Shown here: one piece after another, positions 986 through 23,636 of the stretch
Numbering within the stretch: the stretch's first letter is position 1
Layout of the letters: every line of letters begins with the position of its first letter
Assembly (NCBI GenBank): GCA_021779935.1
Contig: JAJXZT010000040.1
Location: 124,001 to 188,000 of the forward strand
DNA: 64,000 bases
Direction of reading: 5' to 3'
Source of the DNA: Acidobacteriota bacterium
GTDB lineage: Bacteria > Acidobacteriota > Terriglobia > Terriglobales > Acidobacteriaceae
The notes under the pieces: model-generated
Database searches by the model: none
What the model was told of the DNA's origin: nothing
The model's input: only the letters and a program-made list of their open reading frames with translations
Translations under genes and position numbers: made by a program

Positions 986-2254
986 ATGACGCCTCAGATT
1001 GCGAAGACGCCCGAAGCAGCTTCACACAAAAAACGACTGATCTTTTCGGCTGTCGTCGCCGTGCTCATCCTCGTGCTCGGAACAGTCTTTCGGCCTGCGA
1101 GCCTTCGAACGTCCTTGAAAACAGAATCGGAAGTCACGGTCTCTCAGGCAGAGATCGAACAGATCCGCAAGATCGCTTCCAATACCGCAATCAGCTTTGT
1201 GTCAGGACGTTTTGCAGGAGCCGCTCAAATCGTCGATCCGTATCTCGGAGTCTTTCTCGGGTCTCACATGCCATTTGTTGCATGGAAGAATGGGATGGCT
1301 GTCAGCGCCATGCCAAACCAACCATTACCGGCTGAAGCGTTTGGCGTTACTTCTTCCGGGCCGGTAAACATGCAACCGATCCTTAACTCTTCCGCATTTC
1401 CAATTGCGGCTTTCAAGAGCGATCAACTGGCAGTTCCGAACATTGCGCTTAACTGGACGCCCACCGACGGAGCCTCCGTCATCCTGGCGACCAGGAGCAG
1501 CGAAGGGAAGGTAAGCTTTGTGCCCGGTAGCTTCATTGGCGCCGAGCCTTTCTCCTGTTCCGGAACGCCTTTGGAAGAACTCCGCACGACGGTTCCCGTC
1601 TCGGCGCGTTCCATCGGAAGTGTGCTTTTCGATACCAATGGCACTCTTCTTGGACTCGTCGTTTCCTGTCGCCAGTCTGCCGCTATCATCAGCGCCCTGG
1701 ATATCGATGGAATCATCAAAAAGGCAACTTCGGCGGAAGCCACGCTTCGAGCGCGCTACGGCATTGCCTCTTCCCCAGTCCCGCAAGTCAGCAAGAAGTT
1801 TTTTGACGTAGACGGACTGTTGGTTACCAATATCTGGAAAGGCCTCCCAGCCGCCGATGCCGGCTTCCTGCCGGGCGACATCATACTCTCCTCGAAGAAG
1901 CAACCGATTGCCACGCCTGCCGACCTTTTACAACTGCTTCAATCCTCCAGCACGACGAGTATCCCAATTCGAAGATTCGGCCGCCGCATCTATCTGCACT
2001 TCCCTCCCGCGAAGAACGCCAAGCTGCTGGATGCATTCGGATTTGATTACAGGCGAGAAGAAGGAGTCACGCTTGAGAACCTTGACGTGCGCGGCACGCT
2101 CTACGCCGCCGGTGTCCGCAATGGCGACAGGCTGCTTCAGGTCGATGGACAAGCTGCCAGTCCCGCTCTCCTGGCGCGCCTTGCTCCCAGCGTGCCGCAC
2201 TACTTCACCGTCCAGATTGGAAACCGCCTCAAGGGGGTATTCGTTACCCCATGA
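986..2254 (+). CDS. Membrane-anchored protein with degenerate trypsin-like domain and two PDZ domains
   Basis: A 422-aa protein with one N-terminal membrane segment (about 18-33), so most of it should lie in the periplasm. Residues 65-245 resemble an HtrA-type trypsin fold: IGSVLFDTNGTLLGLV (210-225) aligns with the end of the serine-protease core, but the usual GDSGSP is replaced by SARSIGS and no catalytic triad is evident. Two PDZ-like modules follow, about 276-338 (GLPAADAGFLPGDIIL) and 350-420 (GTLYAAGVRNGDRLLQVDG). It is probably a binding or adaptor protein rather than a protease. ATG 986 is preferred to TTG 980 because ATGGGA lies 7 bases upstream. It overlaps the antiporter gene by 4 bases (ATGA), so translation is likely coupled. 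Confidence 0.7.
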   Translation: MTPQIAKTPEAASHKKRLIFSAVVAVLILVLGTVFRPASLRTSLKTESEVTVSQAEIEQIRKIASNTAISFVSGRFAGAAQIVDPYLGVFLGSHMPFVAWKNGMAVSAMPNQPLPAEAFGVTSSGPVNMQPILNSSAFPIAAFKSDQLAVPNIALNWTPTDGASVILATRSSEGKVSFVPGSFIGAEPFSCSGTPLEELRTTVPVSARSIGSVLFDTNGTLLGLVVSCRQSAAIISALDIDGIIKKATSAEATLRARYGIASSPVPQVSKKFFDVDGLLVTNIWKGLPAADAGFLPGDIILSSKKQPIATPADLLQLLQSSSTTSIPIRRFGRRIYLHFPPAKNAKLLDAFGFDYRREEGVTLENLDVRGTLYAAGVRNGDRLLQVDGQAASPALLARLAPSVPHYFTVQIGNRLKGVFVTP

Positions 2255-3483
2255 ATCAGCTTGCCTCCCTGGGTTTCATTCTGTTGCTGGCACTGGTCGC
2301 CGGACACCTGGTCAAGTGGGTGCGCGTGCCCGAGGTCACTGGCTACATCCTGATGGGAGTCCTGATCGGCCCGTCGGTGCTCAGCCTCGTCAGCGGCTCC
2401 AATCTCGCAGCTCTCGGCATATTCAGTGACGTCGCACTAGGCCTGATTCTCTTTTCCATCGGATCGATCTTCGAGGTTAATAAGTTCCGTCACATAGGGC
2501 GTGACGTCATTCGCGTTGCCGTCACCGACGCTGTGGCCACGTTTCTCGCCATGTTGATGGTCATGAAGTTCGCTGGCCAGAGTTGGCAGGCCTCGGCAAT
2601 CATCGCCGCCATCGCCATTGAAACCGCGGCAGCGTCGACCCTGATGGTGATCCGCGAATTAAACGCAGAGGGTCCACTTACGGATGCCATCACCGGGACC
2701 ATCGCCCTGAATAACGTCATCTGCCTCACAACATTCACGCTCGTCGTGGGGCTCGTCCGCTACAGTCTCTCCGCCAACGGCACAACCGTCGCGGGCTCCA
2801 CGATTGCCTACGAAGCTGTTTACCGCTTCTTCTGGCAGATACTGGGCTCGGCGGCCCTCGGATACCTCGTTGGCCTTCTCCTTGGCGCATGGTCGGAGCA
2901 CGTTCACGAACAGGGCGAGATACTCATTCTCCTCATTGGTTGCGTCCTGCTCACCGTGGGGCTGGCTCTCGTGCTTCACCTCTCCACGCTGGTCGCCTCT
3001 CTTGCCGTGGGAGCCACGGCAGCCAACTATTCGGAGACCAGCCGCCGGGTTTTCCGGATTCAATCGCGCACCGACCCGCCGTTTTACGCAATCTTCTTCG
3101 TGCTGGCCGGAGCGAACCTCCATATTTCGCTGCTCAAGACACTTGGCATTGTGGGGATTTTCTATTTCCTGACACGCGGCGCGTCCAAGGTAATTTCGAT
3201 TGCGCTCTCCGCGCGCCGCACCAGCCTTTCTCCCCGCGCGCGCAGCAATTTTCCTCTCGCCATGTTCTCTCACGCCGGACTCGCTATCGGACTTGTGCTT
3301 ACTCTCGAACGGCGCTTGCCGGAGATTGCCGCTCCAATCACAACCATCGTTTTATCTTCCGTTCTAATTTATGAATTGATCGGTCCCCTTACGACGAAGT
3401 TCGCCCTTTTGCGCGCAGGAGAGGCGCAGCAATCACTCGACATCCAGCCTGCCGATCTGGCAGCGGAGCCCCGCGAATCCTGA
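2251..3483 (+). CDS. CPA2-family cation:proton antiporter (KefB/NapA-like membrane domain)
   Basis: A 410-aa, strongly hydrophobic protein with about 12 predicted membrane helices and no C-terminal RCK/TrkA domain. The N-terminus (GHLVKWVRVPEVTGYILMG) and the GLILFSIGSIFE segment near residue 75 are characteristic of the monovalent cation:proton antiporter-2 family, which exchanges Na+ or K+ for protons across the inner membrane. Ion selectivity cannot be read from sequence. Its start codon overlaps the stop of the PDZ protein gene, which suggests a functional pair in which the periplasmic PDZ protein may act on or sense something for the transporter (inference). A non-coding region follows the stop. 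Confidence 0.85.
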   Translation: MNQLASLGFILLLALVAGHLVKWVRVPEVTGYILMGVLIGPSVLSLVSGSNLAALGIFSDVALGLILFSIGSIFEVNKFRHIGRDVIRVAVTDAVATFLAMLMVMKFAGQSWQASAIIAAIAIETAAASTLMVIRELNAEGPLTDAITGTIALNNVICLTTFTLVVGLVRYSLSANGTTVAGSTIAYEAVYRFFWQILGSAALGYLVGLLLGAWSEHVHEQGEILILLIGCVLLTVGLALVLHLSTLVASLAVGATAANYSETSRRVFRIQSRTDPPFYAIFFVLAGANLHISLLKTLGIVGIFYFLTRGASKVISIALSARRTSLSPRARSNFPLAMFSHAGLAIGLVLTLERRLPEIAAPITTIVLSSVLIYELIGPLTTKFALLRAGEAQQSLDIQPADLAAEPRES

Positions 3484-3580
3484 TGAACTGGGATAGTCTG
3501 ACCACTTTTGGGAATGGATGCGTTCGAGACGATTACGGGAGGGAGCTGCGGATGAAATTCGCCTGCCGCATTTTTTCAAC

Positions 3581-3602
3581 ACAAATACGAAACAAATACG
3601 AA
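3581..3602. repeat. Tandem 11-bp repeat, two copies
   Basis: ACAAATACGAA occurs twice head to tail without a gap (3581-3591, 3592-3602). It sits beside an A/T-rich TTTTTTC run, in an otherwise GC-rich intergenic region. No function can be assigned; it could be an iteron-like binding site or replication slippage. Confidence 0.6.
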
Positions 3603-3626
3603 TCCCGAGGTTAGCTAATCTTTTCG

Positions 3627-3825
3627 CCTCGACCAGCAGCTCGCGTTAGACCCTTGCCGAACCTGCGCTCGTTGCTTCCAGCTCACGCTGGCCGCCTCGT
3701 GCGGTTCTTGCTTGGGCTCCGGGCTCGCCGACCAACCGGGCAAATCCGATTAGCGCCTCGGGACTCATTCTTGCCTTCAGCAGTTTCCTGTTCTCCTCGA
3801 CCAGCAGCTTGCTATAGACCCTTGC
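3627..3825. repeat. Pair of imperfect 31-bp direct repeats 168 bp apart
   Basis: Copy one is 3627-3657 and copy two 3795-3825. Both begin CCTCGACCAGCAGCT and end TAGACCCTTGC, with 28 of 31 positions identical by eye. The 137 bases between them show no gene. The right copy ends about 45 bases before the first hairpin of the array, so the repeats may border or belong to that element. No inverted ends or transposase gene are present nearby. Confidence 0.65.
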
Positions 3826-3871
3826 TGCCCCTCCGAGTATCACGGGCCTGAATGTCGTCGCCGGCGTCGGT

Positions 3872-4223
3872 CTGAAGACCGCCGTCTTCTGACCCCCATC
3901 AGTTTGCGGCTGATAGGCTTACCGGCTTGCGTGCCGGCAAGTTTTCCTGTCGACTTTCGTCTTCAGGATCGCCCGTCGGTTTGCCGCCAACGGGCCCCCA
4001 TCGATTGCTCAATAGGGCTCGCTGGTTTGCGGCCAGCGGGGTGCTACTAGCTTGCGACCAGTAGCGCTCGCTGAGATCCGTCGATCTCAGCTCGGCGAAA
4101 ACTTTCGTTCTCGCTTTGCAGGGACCGCCGTCCCTTGGTGCCCGGTAACTGCCGTTACCGGACTGCCGACGACTTCCATCCGGGTGTGTACTCCGGTGAG
4201 CGGGCTTGAGCCCCGGACTCACC
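3872..4223 (-). repeat. Array of about 12 close-packed hairpins with unrelated stems; possible structured RNA
   Basis: Hairpin centres lie at about 3881, 3906, 3929, 3956, 3983, 4008 (weak), 4029, 4054, 4080, 4104, 4127 and 4151, a mean pitch near 24.5 bases, with a longer compound hairpin at 4195-4223. Stems of 5-9 bp all differ in sequence (for example GCTGAGATC/GATCTCAGC at 4070-4091 and CCGGTAAC/GTTACCGG at 4142-4161), joined by 3-8 base linkers. Four stems carry a single A-C mismatch on the plus strand (3918-3941, 3972-3994, 4043-4065, 4095-4114); on the minus strand each becomes a G-U pair. Minus-strand loops are GAAA (twice), GCAA-containing (several), GGCG (twice), GGCA and GACG. This favours an RNA copied from the minus strand. 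I know no family with this description. Confidence 0.7.
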
Positions 4224-4653
4224 ACCAACCGGGAAAACTTCAGAAACTGTCAAAGAACGATTCTGGTTTTACGCTTCTCCTGATGGGAGTCAAGGTTTTC
4301 CGCGAAACTTTATCCCCTTTGTTTTCAATCGAGTGCAGCTCATCCACAGGCGGCTGCCAGAAAACAGTGCAACTCATTCCTGGAATTCGATTCGCGAGCG
4401 CTACGAACGGCGCCGTGCTCACCCTGGCATGTGATTTCCTCCGTAACGCTCAAACCCGCATGAATACTGCCTTCCAGCGATATGTCGACTACAATCCCTC
4501 GACTCTCGCCCACTCCGTGCGTCTGGCACATTCTCCCCTCCTGTTTCCGAGCACTTCGTGTGAAAAAGTCAGTGAAAACCGCATCTGGAGCAGGTTTGCA
4601 AAATTCAGAAAATCGAAATATGCGCGTTCGACTCTGGATTCAGGGCAAGAAAA
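4224..4653. other. Intergenic region between hairpin array and O-methyltransferase terminator
   Basis: No gene is supported. A plus-strand frame stays open through here to 4741, but it also crosses the hairpin array and the terminator of the neighbouring gene and has no family resemblance, so it is taken as chance. If the array is transcribed from the minus strand, its promoter should lie in this stretch. I could not find a convincing -35/-10 pair, although TTGACT occurs on the minus strand near 4290. Confidence 0.4.
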
Positions 4654-4676
4654 AGGCCAGCAAGTTCTGCTGGCCT
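4654..4676 (-). terminator. Intrinsic terminator of the O-methyltransferase gene
   Basis: A perfect 9-bp stem AGGCCAGCA/TGCTGGCCT with a 5-base loop is followed, on the minus strand, by TTTTTC. It lies about 20 bases after the stop codon of the minus-strand gene that ends at 4697. Confidence 0.85.
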
Positions 4677-4696
4677 GGATGGGTAAATTCCAGCTT

Positions 4697-5350
4697 CTAC
4701 AACCTGAGGGCCACACTCACACCATCACGCAACGGCATTAGCGTCGTAAACCACTCTTCGCTGGCGTATAGCGTCCGGTTGAAGTCCACGATTGCCCTGG
4801 TCGACTCCATTCGTATTACATTGCCCGTGCGCCCCGCCGCCAACTCCGCCGGTTCACCGCTCCACAGAGTGTTATCCGTAACAAATAGCCCGCCTTTGCG
4901 GACGCGCGGATTTACGAGACGCAGTACTCTCGGATAATCGTCTTTGTCGACGTCGTTGAATACAACATCGAAGGCATCTTTTTCCTCGCTCAGCAGTTCA
5001 AGCGCATCACCCACTCGGATTTCAACCCTCTCCAATACACCCGCGCGCTTCAGGTACTTTCGCGCTTCCTCGGCGTTTCTCCGGTCTCCGTCGGTGTAGA
5101 TGACCTTGCCACCTTCACCCACGGCCCTTGCCCACCAGATCGTCGAGTATCCGATGGCCGAGCCCATCTCAAAGACCGTCTTTGCGCCAATCATTCGCGC
5201 CAGTTGAAATAACATCCGTCCGACGGCTGGTCCCACGATTGGGATCTTCCGCTCCCGGGCCTGCTGTTCCATCTCGCTCAATACCTCGTCGCGCGCCGGC
5301 AACAGGTCATACAGATAGTGCTCTACCGCCTCGTTCGTAATCCCCGCCAT
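4697..5350 (-). CDS. SAM-dependent O-methyltransferase (caffeoyl-CoA OMT-like)
   Basis: A 217-aa soluble class I methyltransferase. The SAM-binding motif EMGSAIGYS is at 61-69, the acidic end of beta-2 at TDGD (86-89), and the metal/substrate motif FNDVDKDDY at 131-139, with TDN (158-160) completing the divalent-metal site typical of the cation-dependent OMT family. Relatives methylate catechol-like hydroxyls on small molecules; the substrate here is unknown. The start is placed at 5350 (MAGITNEAV), because GGGAG lies about 7 bases upstream and the longer open frame begins with an unlikely extension. It has its own terminator and is transcribed toward the hairpin array. Confidence 0.82.
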   Translation of the reverse strand: MAGITNEAVEHYLYDLLPARDEVLSEMEQQARERKIPIVGPAVGRMLFQLARMIGAKTVFEMGSAIGYSTIWWARAVGEGGKVIYTDGDRRNAEEARKYLKRAGVLERVEIRVGDALELLSEEKDAFDVVFNDVDKDDYPRVLRLVNPRVRKGGLFVTDNTLWSGEPAELAAGRTGNVIRMESTRAIVDFNRTLYASEEWFTTLMPLRDGVSVALRL

Positions 5351-5413
5351 CTGCCAACTCCCTTTGCGAAAAAAGGCCCAACCCTCACGCCGCATTCTAC
5401 AAAGCTTGTTCCA

Positions 5414-22700: not shown

Positions 22701-22980
22701 GCAACACCGCCATCCCTTTTCCGACGCCGCGCTCCACCTCCAGCTTGATAATTTCTTCCAAATAGCGGCGTGTCAGCGGTTCAACGTAAGTGCGATCGGC
22801 CATCTCCGGATCGGTCATGATGGTCGCTGGATTGGAATTCACCAACACGACCTCAAAACCCTCGGCCTTCAACGCCTTGCAAGCTTGCGTACCGGAATAA
22901 TCGAACTCCGCGGATTGGCCAATGACAATCGGTCCCGAACCGATGATGAGAATCTTCGAAATATCTGTGCGACGTGGCAT
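19702..22980 (-). CDS. carB: Carbamoyl-phosphate synthase large chain
   Basis: A 1092-aa enzyme of normal length with duplicated ATP-grasp halves. The N-terminal [20 protein letters not shown] and the repeated [20 protein letters not shown] mark the two carboxy-phosphate and carbamate synthase domains. [21 protein letters not shown] and [21 protein letters not shown] are the matching metal-binding loops. The C-terminal MGS-like domain (about 950-1092) carries allosteric control. With CarA it makes carbamoyl phosphate for arginine and pyrimidines. The start has AAGGATAAG about 8 bases upstream. Unusually, carA lies 1.4 kb upstream, separated by two secreted-protein genes. Confidence 0.98.
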
Positions 22981-23078
22981 CGATTAATTCTTATCCTTCA
23001 ACAAATTCACAACTTGATCTTTGCTGTATTCATATTTGCCAATCCTCCGTTGAACCCAGTAGAGCGCTGCGATCTGCG

Positions 23079-23636
23079 CTATTTACTTGATTCCGGCTCC
23101 TTCGGAAGATCTGCAAATGGCAGTTCCTGAAAACTGTCGTACAACTTCGGCGCTGTCAGCGCCTTAAACTGCGCCGCATCGGCGGGCAGATCGTTCAGCT
23201 TCTTCTCGATGTCGTAGTACCCTTCACTCTCAACCTTGAGTACTCCCTCGCTGGACCACGCGACCGCGACGTACGTCCAACTTTCGTCACGATCGAGATC
23301 GGTCCGCCACCCGATCAGCTTTCCATCCGGCGCGAAGCAATAGTCGCGTACCAACCAGTAATCCGGCCCCTCCGACTGCGTGACGACGTAGCGGTTGGCT
23401 CCCGCATCGAACAGTGCCGCCGTCTGTGCCGCGCCGCCCTTTGTGTCCGGTTCGTCCTCCAGGGTCAAGTATTCCTCCCACCGCTTCCCGTTCGTGGTGG
23501 CGAATAACCTGGGCCTGGCATCGGGTTTCTTTCCACACCGCGCCGCGAATGCCTGCTGCGGAGGATATTGCGCAAACGTGAATACCGCCCCGAGCATCAT
23601 CGCCAGCAACGCTCCGAATCGAATCGCGTTTCGCAT
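23079..23636 (-). CDS. Secreted protein of unknown function, between carA and carB (downstream of a pair)
   Basis: A 185-aa protein with a clear signal peptide (1-23, ending FTFA-QY). The mature part contains a KRWEEYLTLEDE segment, then WLVRDYCFAPDGKLIGWRTD, then a Lys/Asp-rich helix and the ending LYDSFQELPFADL. The layout (CF..xG, a strand repeat, then xLPFxxF/L near the end) parallels the adjacent upstream protein, suggesting an old duplication. AAGGAGAAACGGCG precedes the ATG, overlapping the stop of the upstream gene region, so the two are closely coupled. No catalytic motif is recognised. Confidence 0.5.
   Translation of the reverse strand: MRNAIRFGALLAMMLGAVFTFAQYPPQQAFAARCGKKPDARPRLFATTNGKRWEEYLTLEDEPDTKGGAAQTAALFDAGANRYVVTQSEGPDYWLVRDYCFAPDGKLIGWRTDLDRDESWTYVAVAWSSEGVLKVESEGYYDIEKKLNDLPADAAQFKALTAPKLYDSFQELPFADLPKEPESSK

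Follow-up and report, generated by a model that had tools for sequence, protein, structure and literature searches.

A covarying RNA element with two tandem domains and a length-variable hairpin array in one acidobacterial family-level group

Introduction

Bacteria have, to our knowledge, few large structured RNAs whose function is unknown. Among smaller RNAs, CsrB and RsmZ are runs of packed hairpins that titrate an RNA-binding protein, and the CsrA signature is a GGA in hairpin loops. The 6S RNA (RF00013) stands alone with a long imperfect stem, and rRNA leaders carry the boxA motif. The OLE, ROOL and GOLLD RNAs are hundreds of nucleotides long, have elaborate conserved folds and apparently stand alone, ROOL and GOLLD occurring in phages (PMC12286853). 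Acido-1 (RF01686) and Acido-Lenti-1 (RF01687) are structured RNAs of Acidobacteria (PMC2864571).

Here, we compare with these systems a locus in a 64-kb stretch of DNA, which we call the window. A first-pass annotation had placed about 12 regularly spaced hairpins at 3872–4223. These bounds proved too small, and the array is one insert in a longer minus-strand unit of ~670 nt, from ~4259 to ~3590, with two conserved tandem domains. That the RNA family itself exists is almost certain in our judgement. It resembles OLE, ROOL and GOLLD in size and fold but differs in matching no Rfam 15 model, in having tandem homologous domains and an expandable hairpin junction and, as to ROOL and GOLLD, in lacking any phage or viral match.

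Results

Minus-strand folding gives 12 terminal hairpins at window positions 4163–3874 with a mean pitch of 24.5 nt (sd 1.5 nt), reproducing the annotated count and spacing. The folding z-score of the array is −11.0 on the minus strand versus −4.9 on the plus strand, and the array reads best on the minus strand, as annotated. Its minus-strand loops include GAAA twice and GCAA-type several times, also as annotated. We shuffled 3872–4160 1000 times with dinucleotides preserved, counting as a hairpin any stem of at least 5 bp with a loop of at most 8 nt. The array has 11 clean hairpins versus a shuffled mean of 1.42 and maximum of 5, and its longest run at 20–30 nt pitch is 8 versus at most 3. 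Shuffled sequence of equal regularity, named beforehand as part of a possible refutation, was not seen. When the two strands of the 64-kb stretch were scanned as 880 overlapping 289-nt segments, the minus-strand segment at 3916 came out top for run length as well as for energy gain.

The stems had been described as mutually unrelated. This holds insofar as 300 shuffles give scores of up to 10.5 and the best hairpin-pair score of 8.0 falls among them, but hairpin 8 is similar to hairpins 6 and 11, and hairpins 6 and 8 form a 24-nt direct repeat with 79% identity. Kinship or duplication among the array hairpins is suggestive and not significant. An ORF overlapping the array (3899–4228, minus) has no Pfam family.

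The full-length unit folds with a z-score of −15.8 (20 shuffles), and its MFE and centroid structures are almost identical. All the parts below lie on the minus strand. Conservation across copies and their alignment mark promoter-like boxes at 4293–4288 (TTGACT) and 4272–4267 (GTAAAA), and the RNA would be expected to start at ~4259. Domain 1 is closed by the helix P1, whose 5′ strand is the boxA-like CGTTCTTTGACA (4259–4248) and whose partner is at 3783–3774. In alignment A4 this helix is 99.1% paired, with two of eight pairs changed on both sides. Next comes the conserved 5′ strand of domain 1 (4238–4196), supported by blast and HMM conservation and containing CCCGGTTGG at 4233–4225 and, further on, GTCCGGGGCTCAAGC. 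The variable insert V1 (4195–3835, 361 nt), defined by folding and by comparison of copies, consists of the closing helix of a multiway junction and the 12 hairpins. The conserved 3′ strand (block B, 3834–3774) is placed by conservation and the A4 pairs; it contains GCAAGGGTCTATAGC and, further on, GCTGCTGGTCGAGG at 3808–3795 and takes in the P1 3′ strand.

Domain 2 begins with a 5′ strand at 3763–3710, recognized by conservation, covariation and the header repeat D6, in which the closing helix TCCCGAGG (3763–3756) is followed by CCCGGTTGG again (3740–3732) and later by GAGCCCGGAGCCCAAGC. Its own variable insert V2 (3709–3665, 45 nt) folds into one hairpin with a GUGA loop. The conserved 3′ strand (block C, 3664–3603) ends in CCTCGGGA at 3610–3603, and the repeat D1 corresponds to the two domain tails. 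After the helix comes a terminator-like T-rich stretch (3602–3590), weak in the window copy, where other elements commonly have a T run.

Each tandem domain has its header, CCGGTTGG followed later by GTCCGGGGCTCAAGC or AGCCCGGAGCCCAAGC, and its tail, AAGGGTC followed later by CTGGTCGAG, and the direct repeats 3620/3788 and 3731/4224 are parts of the two domains. When copies were searched with a covariance model built on domain 2, many of them gave a further match on domain 1, with scores of, for instance, 171.1 and 73.6 bits in genome G048. Judged by these matches, the two tandem stem domains are homologous.

Covariation in the core was assessed with RNAalifold on 40 diverse short forms. The consensus structure has 91 pairs, of which 39 show a compensatory change. 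Paired cells make up 97.2% versus 92.0% in shuffles, and double-changed cells number 206 versus a shuffled mean of 53.3 and at most 66 in slid versions. The shuffle counts are no measure of probability, since the sequences share descent and since the alignment tested also supplied the structure and so favours it. A run of wobble pairs is nearly invariant, the four consecutive ones in domain 1 being present in 39, 40, 40 and 39 of 40 rows. The corresponding run in domain 2 has three consecutive wobbles (40, 40 and 39 of 40 rows), with a first position that is mostly G-C (34/40).

For V1, the pairs of a structure derived from a single sequence were counted in a related sequence, against a null of 2000 random placements of letters that ignores the transition excess, which keeps G-U pairs. 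From locus L179 to L162, all 48 pairs are kept and six are double-changed (null 37.7 and 0.4). From L150 to L009, 85 of 108 pairs are kept (null 58.5, maximum 75) with 16 double-changed (null 6.4, maximum 15). L131 to L107 keeps 25/25, above the null maximum, and L012 to L079 keeps 44/55, barely above the maximum of 43. The window structure on L009 keeps 71 of 109 pairs (null 52.0, maximum 67), its 15 double changes lying inside the null (9.7, maximum 19). Kept pairs are inside the null from the window to L150 (54/107, maximum 59), from the window to L010 (54/97, maximum 59) and from L010 to L011 (48/97, maximum 57).

Close pairs of long forms keep V1 pairing, and V1 conservation across genera is weak, on a null blind to transition bias. 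Therefore, these counts do not establish that individual hairpins are homologous between genera. As to compensatory changes in homologues, which the first-pass annotation had named as a check, they occur in the core and in V1 of close long forms but are weak in V1 across genera.

V1 sits at the tip of domain 1 and is only 19–31 nt long in 128 of 154 distinct copies. Longer inserts of 40 to 361 nt occur in 25, and the one remaining length is an artefact of Ns. The window copy has the longest V1 seen, followed by L150 (332 nt), L009 (326), L010 (309) and L011 (284), then by L012 (178), L079 (173), L162 (139), L179 (138) and L019 (100). By folding, L009 and L150 have 10 hairpins, L010 nine, L011 seven, L079, L179 and L162 four each and L019 three, and the closing helix is present in the predicted folds of the largest inserts. 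The conserved blocks gave a tree of 65 rows, in which only 12 of 62 inner branches are starred and the bootstrap is not settled. On it, the short or long state of V1 changes at least eight times; the starred branches alone force three changes for the short-V1 label.

GCAA-type and GNCG/GNCA-type loops recur across lineages. GCAA is found in V2 of 143 of 152 distinct copies, where its letters are invariant columns of A4, and in 63 of 128 short V1 inserts; it is absent from V2 of the window copy. We rely on GCAA alone and dropped the count of any GNRA in the inserts (136/141 and 169/170), because so loose a motif is frequent by chance in 25 bases. The loci L173–L178, in genomes of genus g91, form a divergent subgroup with a changed domain 2 header and a V1 of 40–52 nt (five copies measured whole).

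When 100 relatives were searched with 3830–4240, the significant matches covered almost only the array-flanking bases, at about 1–45 of the query. All 19 relatives' loci retained (L009–L027) have a conserved block on either side of the array, within 4372–4102 and 3859–3591 (blastn), and in 14 of them only 22–28 bases separate the two blocks. The window's own genome holds one confident copy of the element, and 3830–4240 finds no match beyond chance elsewhere in it (best other E 0.247).

A pattern scan of named genomes found at least 118 stretches. All 80 titles among the matches listed are Acidobacteriota, with names including Terriglobia, Sulfotelmatobacter, Angelobacter and Korobacter. In a sample of the window's family, a sequence-only model matches 92 of 200 genomes, spread over 48 of 79 genera, and 108 are without a match. 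The same model matches 25 of 399 genomes in the class sample and seven of 297 in the phylum sample, and a structural model 26 of 399 in the class, in searches whose filters lose weak matches; all these genomes belong to the window's family, which the two samples themselves include. Within the genomes sampled, the element is found in one acidobacterial family-level group. Carriers have 1–4 matches each, partial domain matches included, which we read as one or two full copies per genome. An origin in phages, plasmids or viruses was considered and set aside, as neither the phages and plasmids nor the viral contigs, these scanned with one exact pattern, gave any match.

Copies of the element carry their own box at a fixed distance, and it is predicted to act as a promoter. 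Of the 145 distinct copies whose upstream sequence is long enough, 144 have TTGAC 34–36 nt ahead of the first helix strand, the almost invariant GTTCTT; this count was made without the block-A filter (the filter-selected count had been 148/149). A T-rich run follows the closing helix of domain 2 in 109 of 146 elements, and by this feature the 3′ end often looks terminator-like, if weakly so in the window. Upstream of the promoter box, a conserved stretch CTGTGGATGAGCTGCACTCGATTGAAAAC (4349–4321, minus) recurs with changes in many relatives and could serve as an upstream site for promoter function or for a regulator.

The window copy lies between convergent genes, as had been annotated, namely a Na/H exchanger (2251–3483, plus) and an O-methyltransferase (4697–5395, minus). 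Directly after the latter, a hairpin and then a T run at 4675–4650 (minus) are likely a terminator separating the O-methyltransferase from the RNA. No neighbour gene is common to all copies, and 137 loci fall into 44 context groups, though one of these, with 75 loci, probably arose artificially by chaining and the grouping missed the window's own O-methyltransferase. Nor was a conserved partner protein found among the neighbour genes of the loci compared.

None of the Rfam 15 covariance models matches in the 64-kb window at its curated score. Within 3400–4800 there are only two chance-level matches (E 0.7 and 1.9), on the plus strand and outside the element, and the two found in six relatives (E 0.36 and 0.72) likewise do not touch the elements there. 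Acido-1 and Acido-Lenti-1, although likewise acidobacterial, are not among the matches at E ≤ 5 in 3400–4800 or at E ≤ 1 in the six relatives. No description of this RNA was recognized among the literature listings and abstract openings covered; a term search of the main text of PMC11109978 found no 'Acidobact', 'Koribacter' or 'Solibacter'.

Two further identities were rejected. The element is not 6S RNA, for which 11 of the 12 carriers compared have a separate RF00013 match at other places, in 10 cases above the cut-off, and which lies at C43:170145–170333 in the window's own genome. The resemblance of CGTTCTTTGACA to boxA needs no boxA reading, because CTTTGAC pairs with the downstream GTCAAAG as the 5′ strand of P1, with concerted changes on the two strands in L127 and L154. 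An additional boxA role may exist beside this pairing. Among 30 loci listed for GTTCTTTGAYA in six other genomes, only element copies were recognized as elements, one of them truncated where its contig stops. No 16S start was seen downstream, which carries little weight because a 16S search gave nothing in the window's own genome or in three relatives, probably since these stretches are missing from the sequences searched. A further exact GTTCTTTGACA in the window's own genome lies in apparent coding sequence.

Discussion

Comparison of its copies shows the unit to be an RNA gene that is conserved, covaries, is placed independently and has a hairpin array of variable length. The covariation, the promoter box at fixed spacing and the lack of an Rfam match give good support to the annotated idea of a minus-strand structured RNA outside described families. 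Two other ideas from the same source, a decayed palindromic element and an RNase-resistant 3′ region, fit poorly with copies that have their own promoter box, many gene contexts and kept pairs. A wholly DNA-level feature, whether such a decayed mobile palindrome, a cruciform array or a terminator shared by the convergent genes, could draw on the position of the window copy between those genes. Its probability is nonetheless close to negligible against the strand-asymmetric folding, the conserved G-U pairs with compensatory changes, the fixed spacing of the promoter box and the single copy in the window's genome.

We read the unit as a new stand-alone large structured RNA and give an even chance to its acting as a scaffold, a function predicted by analogy. 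The minus strand from 4259 to 3590, with approximate ends, would be transcribed as a stand-alone noncoding RNA of ~670 nt. Its core would form a rigid scaffold that a protein or a second RNA recognizes through the invariant wobble stretches, and the two domains would offer two binding sites. The tip of domain 1 is the insertion point, where lineages have anything between one short hairpin and 12 of them closed into one junction. The tetraloop-capped hairpins may be outward decorations that stabilize, space or dock the particle. They would be free to vary in number and sequence, much like rRNA expansion segments, because, we propose, mainly their shape matters.

The repeated hairpins could instead make the RNA a sponge that titrates an RNA-binding protein as CsrB and RsmZ do, with array length tuning the capacity. 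The loop types recurrent across lineages and the strongly variable array length speak for such a role. However, none of the 12 loops of the window array contains a GGA, one GGA only straddling the loop and stem of hairpin 4, and most copies have the short V1 whereas the conserved part is the double-domain core, so that we consider a sponge unlikely. Packing of the domains and tetraloop-capped hairpins into a homo-oligomeric, RNA-only particle or cage like those of OLE, ROOL and GOLLD seems to us decidedly unlikely. The size and ornate fold resemble these RNAs (PMC12286853), although ROOL and GOLLD differ by their phage occurrence. The sequence itself allows CCGGUUGG to pair with itself if wobbles are permitted. 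The GCAA loops so frequent in V2 and short V1 are of a type that can dock into helices, which would also suit such packing. A regulator that base-pairs with mRNA targets in trans would profit from the independent unit with its promoter box and often terminator-like end, but the predicted fold leaves the RNA mostly helical and 3830–4240 has no second site in its own genome beyond chance; this we rate as very improbable.

A bolder reading is a large RNA particle that would be a new class in bacteria, in which two tandem domains with a nearly invariant wobble core would self-assemble and each lineage would redesign the hairpin wheel, gaining and losing arms, with mainly the shape under selection. 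We regard this reading as speculative and unlikely to hold. If true, it would be a natural, evolving and modular RNA nanostructure. The 25 long-insert copies among the 154 distinct ones, about two dozen natural forms, separate the constant core from the tunable array.

A few minor observations complete the description. The second-best run of regular hairpins in the 64-kb scan, at 22911–23345 (plus), has a z-score of only −2.3 (22850–23350) and looks coding by eye. A 13-base inverted match (92%) joins 3890–3902 to 4280–4292, the last hairpins to the promoter region, and could be chance or self-regulation. Element copies are paired at contig ends on C2 and C9 of genome G182, there at equal positions, and on C12 and C27 of G027, which suggests near-identical copies inside one genome.
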